Positions 17,545-24,432 of a stretch of 47,701 nt of DNA are shown piece after piece (the first letter of the stretch is position 1; every line of letters begins with the position of its first letter). The stretch covers positions 7,063-54,763 of the forward strand of contig PBLC01000009.1 in the NCBI GenBank assembly GCA_002721675.1, read 5' to 3'. Position numbers and translations under genes: made by a program. The notes beneath the pieces were generated by a model. It was not told the DNA's origin, did not search any database, and worked only from the letters and a program-made list of their open reading frames with translations. The DNA comes from Chloroflexota bacterium (lineage in GTDB: Bacteria > Chloroflexota > Dehalococcoidia > Lucifugimonadales > Lucifugimonadaceae).

Positions 17545-19746
17545 TTAATTAGCAATATTTTCTGCAATAATTTCTAGTATATGTTTTGGTTCGTGAGCAG
17601 AGAAGTCTTCTATTTGGTGTCTACAAGAAACCCCTGTAATTGCGACTTGTGTATTTCTTTCAATGTTATTTAGATAGGGGATTAGTCTGTCATTAGCTAT
17701 TCTTTTTGAGATATCGTAATGCTCTTTCTCATAACCAAATGCCCCTGCCATTCCACAGCATCCTGATGGGATTTTTTCTACTTTAGAATTAGGTATTAGT
17801 TTTAGTGAATCTACAGATACATTTTCTCCTGAAATAGTTTTTTCGTGACAATGTATTTGGACAGCATATGATTTTTTTTCTGGATTATCTTTAAATTTAA
17901 TTTTATTCAAATTAGTAGGATCAGTAATTATTTCCTGCAATAAATATGTATTATTAGAAATTTGATCTGCTCTTTCATCTTCTGGGAACATATCCGGATA
18001 TTCATCCTTTAAAGCTGAAATACAACTAGGCTCAGCTCCCACCACAATTGCTCCTTCTTTTACATGCTCATATAATTTATCAATATTGTATTTAGCATTT
18101 TTCTTAGCAGACTCTAATAACCCTTTGGAAATTAATGGTCTGCCGCAACACTTTTTATCAATCAAAGTAACATTATAATTTAAAGATTTTAGTATTTTTA
18201 TAGCAGATAATCCTACTTCAGGATGATTATAATTTGTAAATGTGTCATGAAAGAATACAGCAGTTCTATTACTACTATTTGAATCTGATTTATATAATTT
18301 CTCAAATGAATAAGAAGCTATCTTTGGAATGTTTCTTCTTTTATCGATTTTTAATAGATAATCGGAAAAAAGTTTAAAAATAAATAATTTTCTAGTTAAG
18401 TTAAAAATACTTGGAAATATTGATCCAATTTTATTTAGAATTGCTATATTACCAGTTAACCTTGACCTAATAGGAATTTTATTTTTTTTATAATATTGGT
18501 GTAAGAATTCGTATTTGATTTTGGCCATATCTACACCAGAAGGACACTCTGACCTACAAGTTTTACACTCTAAACATAAATCTAAAACATTAAATAATTT
18601 TTTGGAATTTAATTCTTTTATGGGTAGTTTGCCTGATAATGCAGCTCTTAGTGCATTTGCTCTTCCTCGAGTTGAATCTACTTCATCTCTAGTTGCCATA
18701 AATGAAGGACACATATATCCAGAGTTAATCTTTTTGCAAGCAGCTTGACCATTACACATTTCAACAGCCTGAGCAAACCCTCCTTCTTTTTTAAAAGAAA
18801 GAAAAGTATCTGTTATTTCCGTTTTATAATTTTTACCAAATCTAAGATTAGAATCCATAGGAGGTGTTTCTATTATCTTTCCAGGATTCAGTATATTTTT
18901 GGGATCAAATGCCTTTTTTAAATCTTTAAAAGCAGAGTATACTTTTTCTCCGTACATTTTTTTTGTCCATGCACCTCTTACAATTCCATCTCCATGCTCC
19001 CCGCTAAATGCACCTCCAAACTCAAATACTAAATCAGAAATATCACTCGATATTTTTACCATCTTTTTTATATCTGCCTCTGATTTAAGATTTATCAGTG
19101 GCCTTATATGAAGACATCCCACTGAAGCATGTCCATAATATCCCGCTGTAGTTCCATTACTTTTTACGATTTCATCAAACCTTCTAACATATTCAGGTAA
19201 TTTTTCGGGAGATACTGCAGTATCTTCAACAAAAGGAATTGCTTTAGCTTCTCCAGGTTTTTTCATAACTAAACCTAATCCGGCTTTCCTCATATTCCAT
19301 ACTTTTTCTTGCTGGATAGAGTCCATCACAATTGTACTTGATAAAGCTAATTTTGAATTTTGAATTTTTGAATTAAGTTTTTCTATTTTATCTTTAACTT
19401 CAAGTTCATTTTCACCATAAAATTCCGCAACTATTATATCTGTAGGGTCACCTTTTAAATAATCAACTCCTGAAGCAAATTCAGAAGATTTTTTTGCTTC
19501 ATTGATAATAATTTCACCTATATGTTCTACCGCTGAGGGGCCAAATTCAAGAGCATATATTGAAGCTTCCATTGATTTGATAATATCCGAGAATTCTATT
19601 ACTAAAAGTCCTTTATTCTTGGGTAGTTCTACTAAATCTAACTCTGCTTCTATAATTGTAGCTAAGGTGCCTTCAGAACCAACTATTAACTTGGTTAAAT
19701 CAACATCCCCGCCTTTATTAATCTCATCTAAATTATATCCACCCAC
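17545..19746 (-). CDS. C-terminal part of FAD-linked oxidase/4Fe-4S (CCG) oxidoreductase (D-lactate/glycolate dehydrogenase-like); same gene as 19733..20449 but in another frame
   Basis: VGGYNLDEINKGGDVDLTKLIVGSEGTLATI; GHASVGCLHIRPLI; CLECKTCRSECPSGVDM; two CCG motifs (KKCCGRPL, SGCCGMAGAFG). Confidence 0.9.
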   Translation of the reverse strand: MGGYNLDEINKGGDVDLTKLIVGSEGTLATIIEAELDLVELPKNKGLLVIEFSDIIKSMEASIYALEFGPSAVEHIGEIIINEAKKSSEFASGVDYLKGDPTDIIVAEFYGENELEVKDKIEKLNSKIQNSKLALSSTIVMDSIQQEKVWNMRKAGLGLVMKKPGEAKAIPFVEDTAVSPEKLPEYVRRFDEIVKSNGTTAGYYGHASVGCLHIRPLINLKSEADIKKMVKISSDISDLVFEFGGAFSGEHGDGIVRGAWTKKMYGEKVYSAFKDLKKAFDPKNILNPGKIIETPPMDSNLRFGKNYKTEITDTFLSFKKEGGFAQAVEMCNGQAACKKINSGYMCPSFMATRDEVDSTRGRANALRAALSGKLPIKELNSKKLFNVLDLCLECKTCRSECPSGVDMAKIKYEFLHQYYKKNKIPIRSRLTGNIAILNKIGSIFPSIFNLTRKLFIFKLFSDYLLKIDKRRNIPKIASYSFEKLYKSDSNSSNRTAVFFHDTFTNYNHPEVGLSAIKILKSLNYNVTLIDKKCCGRPLISKGLLESAKKNAKYNIDKLYEHVKEGAIVVGAEPSCISALKDEYPDMFPEDERADQISNNTYLLQEIITDPTNLNKIKFKDNPEKKSYAVQIHCHEKTISGENVSVDSLKLIPNSKVEKIPSGCCGMAGAFGYEKEHYDISKRIANDRLIPYLNNIERNTQVAITGVSCRHQIEDFSAHEPKHILEIIAENIAN

Positions 19747-20449
19747 CCTTCTTTGTATTTTTGGGAATTTTTTTTTCTAATTCATCTGTGTATTCCTTAA
19801 ATAAATTTAACGAATTGCTATAAATATTTGACTCCAAAGAACCCTTGTTTAGTAGACTTTCAAATCTATTAAATGATAATTTTTCAAATTTATGGTTATT
19901 ACCGTTTGAAAGGATAGTCTCTAGGCTGGAGACATGGTCAATTGTTTTCCCGTATATTACAGAGTGTGCTCCACAAGAATTATTTCCTATTACTCCACCC
20001 ACAGTTGCCCTATTTGTAGTACTTGGATCGGGTGTAAAGAGCAAATTCATAGGTTTTAGGTAGCTATTTAATGTATCTATTGTGATTCCTGGCTGCGTTA
20101 TTATTTTTTTATTATTTTTATCAAAATCAATAACTGAATTTAAATATTTTGAAAAATCAATTACTATCGCTCTATTTACAGTCTGCCCAGACAGACTTGA
20201 ACCACCACCTCTTGGTAATATAGCGATATTATTTTCATCTGCGATTTGGACTATAGTTTTTACGTCATTAGTATTTTTTGGTATCGCTACACATAATGGA
20301 ATTATTCTGTAAATAGAGGCGTCTGTTGAATATATTTCCCTAGTAATTTCATCAAATCTAACTTCTCCGCTAATTTCTCTTAGAAGTGTCTTTTTTATAG
20401 AATCTTCTATCTCATCTGCAGAGTAATTATTTGATATTTTTTGAACCAT
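19733..20449 (-). CDS. N-terminal FAD-binding (FAD_binding_4) part of the same oxidoreductase; frame lost after an A9 tract
   Basis: PLCVAIPKNTNDVKTIVQIADENNIAILPRGGGSSLSGQTVNRAIVIDFSKYLN...LFTPDPSTTNRATVGGVIGNNSCGAHSV. Confidence 0.9.
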   Translation of the reverse strand: MVQKISNNYSADEIEDSIKKTLLREISGEVRFDEITREIYSTDASIYRIIPLCVAIPKNTNDVKTIVQIADENNIAILPRGGGSSLSGQTVNRAIVIDFSKYLNSVIDFDKNNKKIITQPGITIDTLNSYLKPMNLLFTPDPSTTNRATVGGVIGNNSCGAHSVIYGKTIDHVSSLETILSNGNNHKFEKLSFNRFESLLNKGSLESNIYSNSLNLFKEYTDELEKKIPKNTKKGGWI

Positions 20450-21410
20450 CTTTTTCCTTAATTATATTAGAAAGTAAAATACTAACTGTAATAATACCTA
20501 CTATAGTACCTAAGGAGACATATGTATTTATATGAAAATGGGTAATATATTCACTATTAATTAATGGGCCTATATTTTCGCCAAGATATTCCATAGACAT
20601 TTTAAAGCCAATAAAAACTAATATTAAAGACAATCCGTACTTAAGAAATCTAAACTGGTTCTGTATTTCTTGGATAAGGAAATATAACGGCCTCATACCA
20701 ATAACTGCCATCATATTTGAAGTCCATACTATAAATACATCTTGCGTTATTCCGAAAATTGTTGGAATTGAATCAATTGCAAATACAATATCCGTACTAG
20801 CAAGTACAATAACAACTAGAAACAAAGGTGTAAATTTTTTAACACCATTAATGTTTGTTCTAAATCTTGATCCATCAAATTCACTGCTTACACTAACAAA
20901 TTTATTTGCAATTCTATAAATAAAATTATTTTCGGGATTGGAGTCACTTTCTTTTACTAGAGCAATTTTTATTCCTGTATAAATTAAGAAAATTCCCATA
21001 ACCAATAATACCCATCCAAAATTTGAAAGAATGATAGATCCAAGAGCAATGAATATTGCCCTAGTTATTAAAGCCCCCATTATTCCATAAGTTAAAGCTA
21101 GTGATTGTAATTTTGCTGGGATTTGAAAAAATTCAAAAATGATTATGAATACAAATAAATTATCGAAACATAAGGCTTTCTCTGCAATGTATCCTGCTAA
21201 AAACGAAACTCCTCTTTCATTATTAGTCATTAATGACCCATCTTCCACAAAAAACCATAGTGCCACAATCATTGATATAGATATCCAGCATAAACTCCAA
21301 ATTAATGCTGATTTAAATTTATAAATTTTCCCTTTAGATATGTATAAGTCAAAAATAAGAAGTACTATTACAAATACATTAAAGATTATCCAAGGATAAT
21401 AATCAGCCAT
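20427..21410 (-). CDS. TerC family integral membrane protein
   Basis: EKALCFDNLFVFIIIFEFFQIP; STDIVFAIDSIPTIFGITQDVFIVWTSNMMAVIGMRPLYFLI. Confidence 0.93.
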   Translation of the reverse strand: MADYYPWIIFNVFVIVLLIFDLYISKGKIYKFKSALIWSLCWISISMIVALWFFVEDGSLMTNNERGVSFLAGYIAEKALCFDNLFVFIIIFEFFQIPAKLQSLALTYGIMGALITRAIFIALGSIILSNFGWVLLVMGIFLIYTGIKIALVKESDSNPENNFIYRIANKFVSVSSEFDGSRFRTNINGVKKFTPLFLVVIVLASTDIVFAIDSIPTIFGITQDVFIVWTSNMMAVIGMRPLYFLIQEIQNQFRFLKYGLSLILVFIGFKMSMEYLGENIGPLINSEYITHFHINTYVSLGTIVGIITVSILLSNIIKEKDGSKNIK

Positions 21411-21412
21411 TA

Positions 21413-22279
21413 CTATCTATTTGAGCTTGAGGTAATCTTATACTCTAAAGTACCTGAAGGACTCTTAACACTAACGATTTCTCCTTTAGCTTTTCCAAGA
21501 ATTGCTTTGCCGACTGGAGATTCTGATGATATTTTTGAATTTAAAGGATCTGCTTCATGAAAATCTACTACCTGGAAAGAATGAACTTCTTTATTATTTT
21601 GGTTCTCAATAGTTACCTTTGTTCCAATATTTATTTTGCCCTTCAATAAGGATTGAGATCCATCATCTATAATAATTGCACCTCTCATTAAATTTTCTAT
21701 ATCTGTTATTTTAGCCATAACCATACCTTGGGCTTCTCTCGCTGCTTCAAGTGGTGCATTTTCTCTTACGTCACCATCTGCCGCAGCATTTTGAATATCA
21801 ACCGCTAAATCCATCTTTTGTTTATTTAACTTATCTAATTGGCCAATTAAAGTTTTGTATCTACTTCTTGTTAGTTTCGGCCCTTCTTCAAATGTAGAAA
21901 CCTTATTCTTAGTTCTTTTATTGGTTAGGATTCTTTTAGATCTTAAATGTGATGGAATATTTAGATCAGTTTTGATCAATTCATTATTATGTAAAAACCC
22001 CAGAAACTTTTTTACTGAAGCAAGCCTAGATTGGGTGTCAGTATTAGCCATTCTAGAAGTAATTTGTTGGCTATAGTCCCCTACTTCAGGAGGCTTTAAA
22101 TTTGATAATAATTTTTCTTCACCAATATTAGTAACAAAATCAGCTACAACCGCTCTCTCATTCATTCTTTCGGAAATTGGTATTGTTTTTACATAGTACT
22201 TCAAAGCTTCTATCATATTAGATTCTGAAGTTAATTCAATTTCACTTTTTACTTCCTCGATGTTTGTCTTTTTTGCCAT
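21413..22279 (-). CDS. GreA/GreB-family transcription elongation factor with a long N-terminal extension
   Basis: GreA coiled-coil tip AADGDVRENAPLEAAREAQGMVMAKI and C-terminal SSESPVGKAILGKAKGEIVSVKSPSGTLEYKI; extra ~115 aa at N-terminus. Confidence 0.85.
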   Translation of the reverse strand: MAKKTNIEEVKSEIELTSESNMIEALKYYVKTIPISERMNERAVVADFVTNIGEEKLLSNLKPPEVGDYSQQITSRMANTDTQSRLASVKKFLGFLHNNELIKTDLNIPSHLRSKRILTNKRTKNKVSTFEEGPKLTRSRYKTLIGQLDKLNKQKMDLAVDIQNAAADGDVRENAPLEAAREAQGMVMAKITDIENLMRGAIIIDDGSQSLLKGKINIGTKVTIENQNNKEVHSFQVVDFHEADPLNSKISSESPVGKAILGKAKGEIVSVKSPSGTLEYKITSSSNR

Positions 22280-22436: not shown

Positions 22437-22586
22437 ATGACTAAGAGAACATATCAACCAAAAAAAAGAAAAAGAGCAAGAACTCACGGTTTTCGTGTGA
22501 GAATGAGAACCAAAAGTGGAAGAAATATTCTTAAAAGAAGGCGAGTCCGAGGAAGGAAGCTTTTAACTGTTGTCTCAAAACAATAG
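22437..22586 (+). CDS. rpmH: 50S ribosomal protein L34 (not in the supplied ORF track, 49 aa)
   Basis: [49 protein letters not shown], immediately upstream of rnpA. Confidence 0.96.
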
Positions 22587-22937: not shown

Positions 22938-23149
22938 TGTTTAAAAAAATAATATTAAAATTTATAAAATTATACATCTTGGTTGCCTCTCCTTATATTG
23001 GCGGCAATTGTAAATATACCCCTTCATGTTCAAATTATGGGTATCAAGCAGTGGCAAAGCACGGAGCTTTAATAGGATCTTGGATGATTTTTGTTAGATT
23101 ATTTAAATGCCATCCATTTTCAAAGGGAGGATATGATCCGGTTAGATGA
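22937..23149 (+). CDS. yidD: Membrane protein insertion efficiency factor YidD
   Basis: GGNCKYTPSCSNYGYQAVAKHGALIGSWMIFVRLFKCHPFSKGGYDPV. Confidence 0.95.
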   Translation: MFKKIILKFIKLYILVASPYIGGNCKYTPSCSNYGYQAVAKHGALIGSWMIFVRLFKCHPFSKGGYDPVR

Positions 23150-24432
23150 AAATTATTAAAGAAAATAAGATATTACTTCTCGTTATTTTGTTTTTAACAA
23201 CAACTTTATTCGGATGTATGAATGATATGGAGCATCAAGGTAATTGGTCATCTCCAGTAGTTGATGAAAATTACGTATATGCTCCTTCTGATAAAGGAAA
23301 AATTTATAAATTTTCTAAGAAAGATGGATCTTTAGTTAAGGGTTGGGAATTTCCTTCAGGAGATAATTCTTTGGGTTCTTTTTATGGAGAAATGATTATA
23401 AATGATGGAATTTTATATGGTTCAGCATATGGAAATGGAGAAGGAAAAAAATGTCAGAATAGAAAATGTGTTTCTAGTTTATTTGGCATAGATGTGGCTA
23501 ACGGTGATTCAATATGGATGGAAGATTATATAAGTATAAATGGTTCAGTTGTTGGAGGTGTTGTTTATCACAATAGCACTATTTATGTTGCTACCTCTGA
23601 AAATGATAAAGGTAATGATGCAGGAGGATATCTATACGCTATTGACGCTAAGTCTGATTCTAATAAAACTTTAGATGAACTTACTAGCAAGATATTATGG
23701 AGAATCCCTTTAATAGGTGAAGTTTATGGAACACCTCATTTAGACGAAGAGCAAGAAATATTAATTATTGGAGGATTGAATGGGGATATTTCATTAGTAG
23801 ATATTAGGATAGACGATTCTTATAATTCTAATTCACTTAGTAGACTTATTTTAACAAGAGATGGCGAGTATCCAATAATTTCATCTGTTATTAAAGTTTC
23901 TGAAGATTCATACTGCTACGGAGATATAAAGGGTAAATTAAAATGTTTTAAATTAGGTTTATTTAAAAACGATATTTCTGAAATTAATACATTTAATTAT
24001 TGGGGCGAATTGTCACTGGATGGTTGGATTTGGTCTGATATAGAGTCATATAATAATTCATATTATGCGATTACATTATCTGGATGGTTATACAGAATAG
24101 ATATAGATTCTGATTCAGAACTAATATCTATAATTTGGAATAAAGAGTTAAAATTTGATGGAAAACCGGTAGCTGGCCTGTCTCCATATACATTTAGAAA
24201 TCAGGTGCTATTAGCAGTTCCTTTTGACAAAGACAAGATAATTATCATTGAGGATGGCACAGGTTCTACTCTCGGGGAATATCCATTAAAGAATGGTGTT
24301 CAGTCACTTCCAATTGTAGATAATAATCTAATATTTACTATCGACAGAGAGAATAATTTTAGGAGTTATTCAGTTTCTGATAGATCACAGATAATATGTT
24401 TTGATTTAAATGATATGAAAGGCTGTGATTAA
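23146..24432 (+). CDS. PQQ-type beta-propeller lipoprotein, unknown function
   Basis: Lipobox TTTLFGC; repeats such as SSPVVDENYVYAPSDKGKIYKFSKKDGSLVKGWEF and GTPHLDEEQEILIIGGLNGDISLVDI. Confidence 0.8.
   Translation: MKIIKENKILLLVILFLTTTLFGCMNDMEHQGNWSSPVVDENYVYAPSDKGKIYKFSKKDGSLVKGWEFPSGDNSLGSFYGEMIINDGILYGSAYGNGEGKKCQNRKCVSSLFGIDVANGDSIWMEDYISINGSVVGGVVYHNSTIYVATSENDKGNDAGGYLYAIDAKSDSNKTLDELTSKILWRIPLIGEVYGTPHLDEEQEILIIGGLNGDISLVDIRIDDSYNSNSLSRLILTRDGEYPIISSVIKVSEDSYCYGDIKGKLKCFKLGLFKNDISEINTFNYWGELSLDGWIWSDIESYNNSYYAITLSGWLYRIDIDSDSELISIIWNKELKFDGKPVAGLSPYTFRNQVLLAVPFDKDKIIIIEDGTGSTLGEYPLKNGVQSLPIVDNNLIFTIDRENNFRSYSVSDRSQIICFDLNDMKGCD

Follow-up and report, generated by a model that had tools for sequence, protein, structure and literature searches.

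The window, the whole stretch of DNA analyzed here, comprises 47,701 nucleotides from a 0.98-Mb MAG (77% complete) that belongs to SAR202/Dehalococcoidia and has SAR202 as its nearest named relatives. The earlier note had placed a GreA-family protein with an integrase-like N-terminal domain at 21935-22222. We found that this interval corresponds to residues 20-115 of an open reading frame at 21413-22279 on the minus strand, and we confirmed that frame. The gene, its parts and its immediate neighbor are listed below with the evidence used for each.

21413..22279, minus strand: whole gene, a GreA-type factor with an N-terminal recombinase-type core-binding domain, 288 aa (ORF, families, order-wide conservation)
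21929..22222, minus strand: N-terminal core-binding (integrase SAM-like) domain, residues 20-117 (profiles, AlphaFold, Foldseek)
22010..22027, minus strand: basic residues of helix 4, R85-K90 (comparison with Xer positions)
21932..21949, minus strand: conserved H111-L-R113-x-K-R116 motif at the end of the domain (Xer comparison)
21878..21928, minus strand: flexible basic linker, residues 118-134 (charge, low pLDDT)
21674..21877, minus strand: Gre N-terminal coiled coil, residues 135-202 (Pfam, AlphaFold, Foldseek)
21761..21772, minus strand: coiled-coil tip D170-V-R-E173, equivalent to E. coli GreA D41 and E44 (alignment)
21428..21643, minus strand: Gre C-terminal FKBP-like domain, residues 213-284 (Pfam)
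20427..21410, minus strand: TerC-family membrane protein, directly downstream of greA after a 2-base gap (ORF, neighbor survey)

Both Gre domains scored above their Pfam cut-offs: GreA_GreB_N (PF03449) at residues 136-202 (E 2.5e-12, 47.2 bits, cut-off 24.5) and the GreA_GreB C-terminal domain (PF01272) at residues 213-284 (E 7e-21, 74.4 bits, cut-off 26.9). In Foldseek searches, this half of the fused protein matched GreA, GreB and Gfh1 structures. The acidic tip residues read earlier from the sequence are present as D170 and E173. As had also been claimed, a recombinase catalytic domain with R-H-R-Y is absent, and the remainder of the fused protein is Gre. The protein as a whole falls below the NCBIfam GreA equivalog cut-off, with NF001263 as its best model (126 versus 145 bits).

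The TerC gene is probably co-transcribed with greA. We found TerC as a neighbor at 28 loci, all in the window's family, and the greA neighbors TerC, FAD oxidase and rnpA were kept mainly within that family. We rejected a conserved operon, and these neighbors offer no clue to function. Further downstream (17545-20449, minus strand), the FAD-binding and FAD-oxidase_C/Fe-S parts of a glycolate-oxidase-like protein are split between two ORFs that overlap, the reading frame shifting near 19740. The same protein is one intact 967-aa ORF in the relatives L032 and L033, which implies that the window carries either an error of sequencing or a gene that has recently become a pseudogene. On the other side, a short ORF at 22440-22586 (plus strand), apparently ribosomal protein L34 (rpmH), lies upstream of rnpA and is divergent from greA; in the window's family, greA adjoins the rpmH-rnpA-yidD-yidC-jag cluster. 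A lipoprotein-like beta-propeller with PQQ repeats (23146-24432, plus strand) is inserted between yidD and yidC. This insertion is unusual and is kept in at least 18 loci of the family.

Identity of the N-terminal domain

Searched as a single sequence, residues 1-136 of the window protein had no Pfam match, and NCBIfam gave one weak integrase match to the N-terminal part (E 0.006). Likewise, single-sequence Pfam matches to the Phage_int_SAM clan were obtained for 6-7 of 36 family members, all weak (best 9e-4), and not for the window N-domain. We also compared profiles, using an N-domain profile (A1) built from 36 diverse relatives. Its best PDB sequence match by hmmsearch was the integrase N-domain 3nrw (E 9e-4), and among Chloroflexota genomes it retrieved XerC/XerD-like and other tyrosine recombinases besides the Gre fusions. 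As a guard against circularity, 29 tyrosine-recombinase N-domains were gathered independently via PF02899. Alignment of the N-domain with these XerC/XerD-type domains by hhalign gave a probability of 97.5%, an E-value of 5.3e-12 and a score of 64.3; by comparison, 100 column shuffles scored at most 18.3 and the reversed profile scored 12.3.

Structure prediction with AlphaFold, which was given the five closest sequences and no templates, yielded models of medium confidence. The N-domain was modeled as a four-helix bundle (helices 22-32, 35-52, 63-75 and 80-98), followed by a low-confidence linker (residues 105-133) and then by the Gre coiled coil. Modeled alone, the N-domain reached a pLDDT of 75.6 and a pTM of 0.68; the full-length model had a low overall pTM of 0.37 and does not support any one placement of the halves relative to each other. 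The first 25 PDB matches that Foldseek returned for the isolated model were all core-binding domains of integrases, Xer, Tn1549 or lambda Int, with a TM of 0.68/0.71 and an rmsd of 2.5 against 3nrw. Individual Foldseek E-values were modest (0.04-0.75), and our fold assignment is based on the consistency of the list and its agreement with the sequence comparison. Two other identities were discarded. An effector-associated domain was suggested by a single EAD7 match in one member, at chance level (E 0.24), and the non-integrase matches of the profile (proteasome alpha-7, eL27 and SidK) were short or of unrelated folds. Taken together, the profile comparisons and the predicted SAM-like bundle uphold the resemblance to Xer/phage integrase N-terminal domains that the earlier note had proposed, and indicate that the N-domain is almost certainly homologous to the core-binding domain of tyrosine recombinases.

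Spread of the fusion and the catalytic tip

The fused architecture is conserved across the order, and our survey of Chloroflexota genomes showed it to be a class-wide trait that is not peculiar to the window genome. The N-domain profile matched 166 of 180 high-quality Dehalococcoidia genomes. A second class carries the full-length fusion in 28 of 29 genomes, one of these copies being cut off where its contig begins, and a third class carries it in families f136, f160 and f174, with no full-length fusion in families f125 and f139. The fusion was found in 0 of 61 sampled genomes in each of two other Chloroflexota classes, where every Gre match starts near the coiled coil and N-domain-only matches sit in separate, recombinase-sized ORFs. 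In the window genome, the fused protein is the sole Gre protein that we found. Exactly one Gre protein is present in 17 of the 18 genomes of the window's family and in 9 of the 11 genomes of family f54, all 11 of which have the N-domain. A contig scan found four close SAR202 relatives. We also considered whether the fused gene came from a virus or a plasmid and rejected this: no relative was confirmed in IMG/VR, and no phage or plasmid record gave a match spanning 80% of the protein. Separately, no GreA/GreB C-terminal domain was detected in four Dehalococcoidia genomes that are at least 90% complete (G199, G216, G258 and G316).

Residues D41 and E44 at the coiled-coil tip of E. coli GreA support transcript cleavage (PMC7527559). 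Upon alignment to this protein, the D/E pair was found in all 53 fused proteins of set A3 and in one more (L208), or 54 of 54. We also aligned GreA paralogues of ordinary length from these lineages, using coordinates to select them and leaving the tip sequence out of the choice. The pair occurs in none of these 59 short proteins, 45 of which come from fusion-bearing genomes and 14 from genomes without a detected fusion; GGTVDNAEY, STQNNAEY and DTVDNAEY are typical of their tips. In the two fusion-free classes, one GreA per genome was taken, the copy that scored highest with a profile derived from the fused proteins, and 61 of 61 carried the pair. This count shows that every such genome has one or more D/E GreA proteins and does not extend to all copies. 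Family f47 of the Dehalococcoidia (genomes G154 and G212) has neither the fusion nor a D/E-tipped GreA, and the tips of its Gre proteins (L169-L172) read D/D or G/E, which weighs against the explanation proposed below.

In a tree of the Gre domains, the short proteins formed one clade (99/95), separate from the fused lineage. A 98/89 branch had the fused proteins and a single short exception on one side and E. coli GreA on the other. The exception (L180, genome G416) keeps the D/E tip, has lost the N-domain as judged from the upstream frames, and is the only Gre match in its genome, which implies that the N-domain is not always needed. Most simply, the fused paralogue would have taken on cleavage, and the short GreA would have decayed or turned to another use. 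Since the pair is kept in the fused proteins, is lost in their paralogues, and belongs to the sole Gre factor in several lineages, the fused protein is very probably an active cleavage factor.

Possible roles of the added domain

Our explanation as a whole, in which we place about even confidence, is that a Gre factor gained a Xer core-binding domain, took over cleavage, and uses the new domain to grip DNA. In an ancestor of several Chloroflexota lineages, a Gre protein would have acquired a XerC/XerD-type core-binding domain at its N-terminus, and the fused Gre would then have taken over transcript cleavage from the ordinary-length GreA. Its coiled coil would enter the secondary channel of RNA polymerase and bring Asp170 and Glu173 to the active site, and the polymerase would then cut backtracked RNA. 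When Gre factors are bound to RNA polymerase in known complexes, their coiled coil starts at the mouth of the secondary channel, so that an added domain would be placed on the surface of the polymerase, from where the linker could reach DNA. The N-domain, on its flexible basic linker of 20-29 residues, would remain outside, at the channel mouth. There it would most likely grip the DNA beside the polymerase through the basic residues of helix 4 and the linker, and this grip would keep the factor on complexes that have stalled or backtracked. Of this account, the sequences and predicted structures show the identity of the domain, its conservation, the intact tip, the loss of that tip in the paralogues and the sole-Gre status in several lineages; the cleavage activity, the position on RNA polymerase and the contact with DNA are inferred.

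Three basic positions shared with Xer are consistent with DNA contact. R85 is Lys or Arg in 86% of the fused family (97% at the matching Xer position), K90 in 100% (97% in Xer), and R116, which matches a basic residue of the Xer interdomain linker, is basic in 100% (93% in Xer). In addition, the region of residues 112-135 spans 20-29 aa across the family and has a mean net charge of +5.3. However, other features of the domain point toward the same protein, with the same takeover of cleavage, in which the N-domain does not bind DNA and is instead a docking module that contacts RNA polymerase, or another protein, beside the secondary channel and sets the affinity of the factor. The net charge of the N-domain is near zero (mean +0.5), and the arginine that all 29 Xer domains have just before the R85 position is lost here (S84 in the window protein), together with several further Xer basic positions. 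These losses and the near-neutral charge suggest that the DNA-binding face has at least been remodeled. The family has also gained conserved positions of its own that are new relative to Xer, namely W51, G53, H111 (kept in 33 of 36 members) and R113 (94%), and conserved residues of this kind would suit a docking surface. A docking module is a credible reading that we hold at somewhat less than even confidence; the basic positions kept at 86-100% and the strongly basic linker are harder to reconcile with it. We prefer DNA tethering, with docking nearly as likely, and we place somewhat less than even confidence in DNA contact by the N-domain. A bolder form of DNA tethering, a working cleavage factor with a recombinase-derived clamp on template DNA beside RNA polymerase in much of the Chloroflexota, with ordinary GreA turned into a cleavage-dead secondary-channel factor, is somewhat doubtful.

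Alternatively, the N-domain might inhibit the factor by folding back as a cap over the coiled coil or the C-terminal domain, with release only on a signal. The long flexible linker would permit such folding, and masking is conceivable as a way to regulate a sole Gre factor, but we saw no sensor motif in the fused protein and the AlphaFold pTM of the full-length model offers no fixed arrangement of the halves, and we regard a cap as improbable. Lastly, a fusion created by a mis-called start, a frameshift or an assembly joint, or an N-domain that is a decaying remnant, might be suspected in an incomplete MAG with a frameshifted neighboring gene, but it has next to no chance of being correct, because hundreds of independent genomes have this fused, in-frame architecture, which rejects an artefact of assembly or start codon, and because the N-domain is under strong purifying selection (dN/dS 0.01-0.14 where dS is unsaturated, similar to the Gre C-terminal domain).

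Relation to known systems and implications

The fused protein shares with E. coli GreA and GreB the coiled coil, the FKBP-like C-terminal domain and the D41/E44-equivalent tip, and differs from them in the extra N-terminal core-binding domain of ∼117 residues plus a linker. With XerC/XerD and other tyrosine recombinases it shares the homologous four-helix domain and the basic positions of helix 4 and the linker; unlike them, it has Gre in place of the catalytic domain and its R-H-R-Y residues and lacks the arginine before R85. Gfh1 of Thermus is a Gre-like secondary-channel factor without cleavage activity, and the short Chloroflexota paralogues, in which the D/E pair is missing, are likely to be comparable with it. 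The fused protein keeps this pair and is thus the GreA-like one of the two paralogues, not a Gfh1-type inhibitor. Reuse of a recombinase-type core-binding domain without recombination is also seen in MrpR of prophage SPbeta, a recombinase fold turned DNA-binding repressor (PMC10516654). MrpR retains the entire recombinase fold, whereas the fused Gre has the core-binding domain alone, attached to a factor that acts on RNA polymerase.

Extra domains N-terminal to Gre modules have a precedent in the Effector-TPR-GreA/B-C-PIN conflict proteins (PMC8195603), and the large GreA models of NCBIfam, NF011309 (906 aa) and NF004969 (718 aa), provide a further one. The extra regions of all of these are unrelated to the fused N-domain: the two models match the fused protein over the Gre part only, or over Gre and some of the linker, and Pfam detected no EAD/effector domain, TPR repeats or PIN domain in it. 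We found no published description of a fusion between Gre and a core-binding domain in a search that covered mainly the open literature. The component families are known; that literature offered no account of how they are combined here, of how the combination extends through a whole class, or of the partner GreA having lost its tip residues.

Gre factors are regarded as small proteins that share a single two-domain design. In this case a whole class, including the abundant SAR202 bacteria of the ocean, appears to rely on a three-domain Gre with a recombinase module. The gene that automatic pipelines would annotate as GreA in these organisms has lost the catalytic residues, and greA annotation in Chloroflexota should change as a result. 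The fused Gre may also serve as a natural test of whether cleavage can be coupled to DNA contact, for example at stalled polymerases or in collisions with replication.
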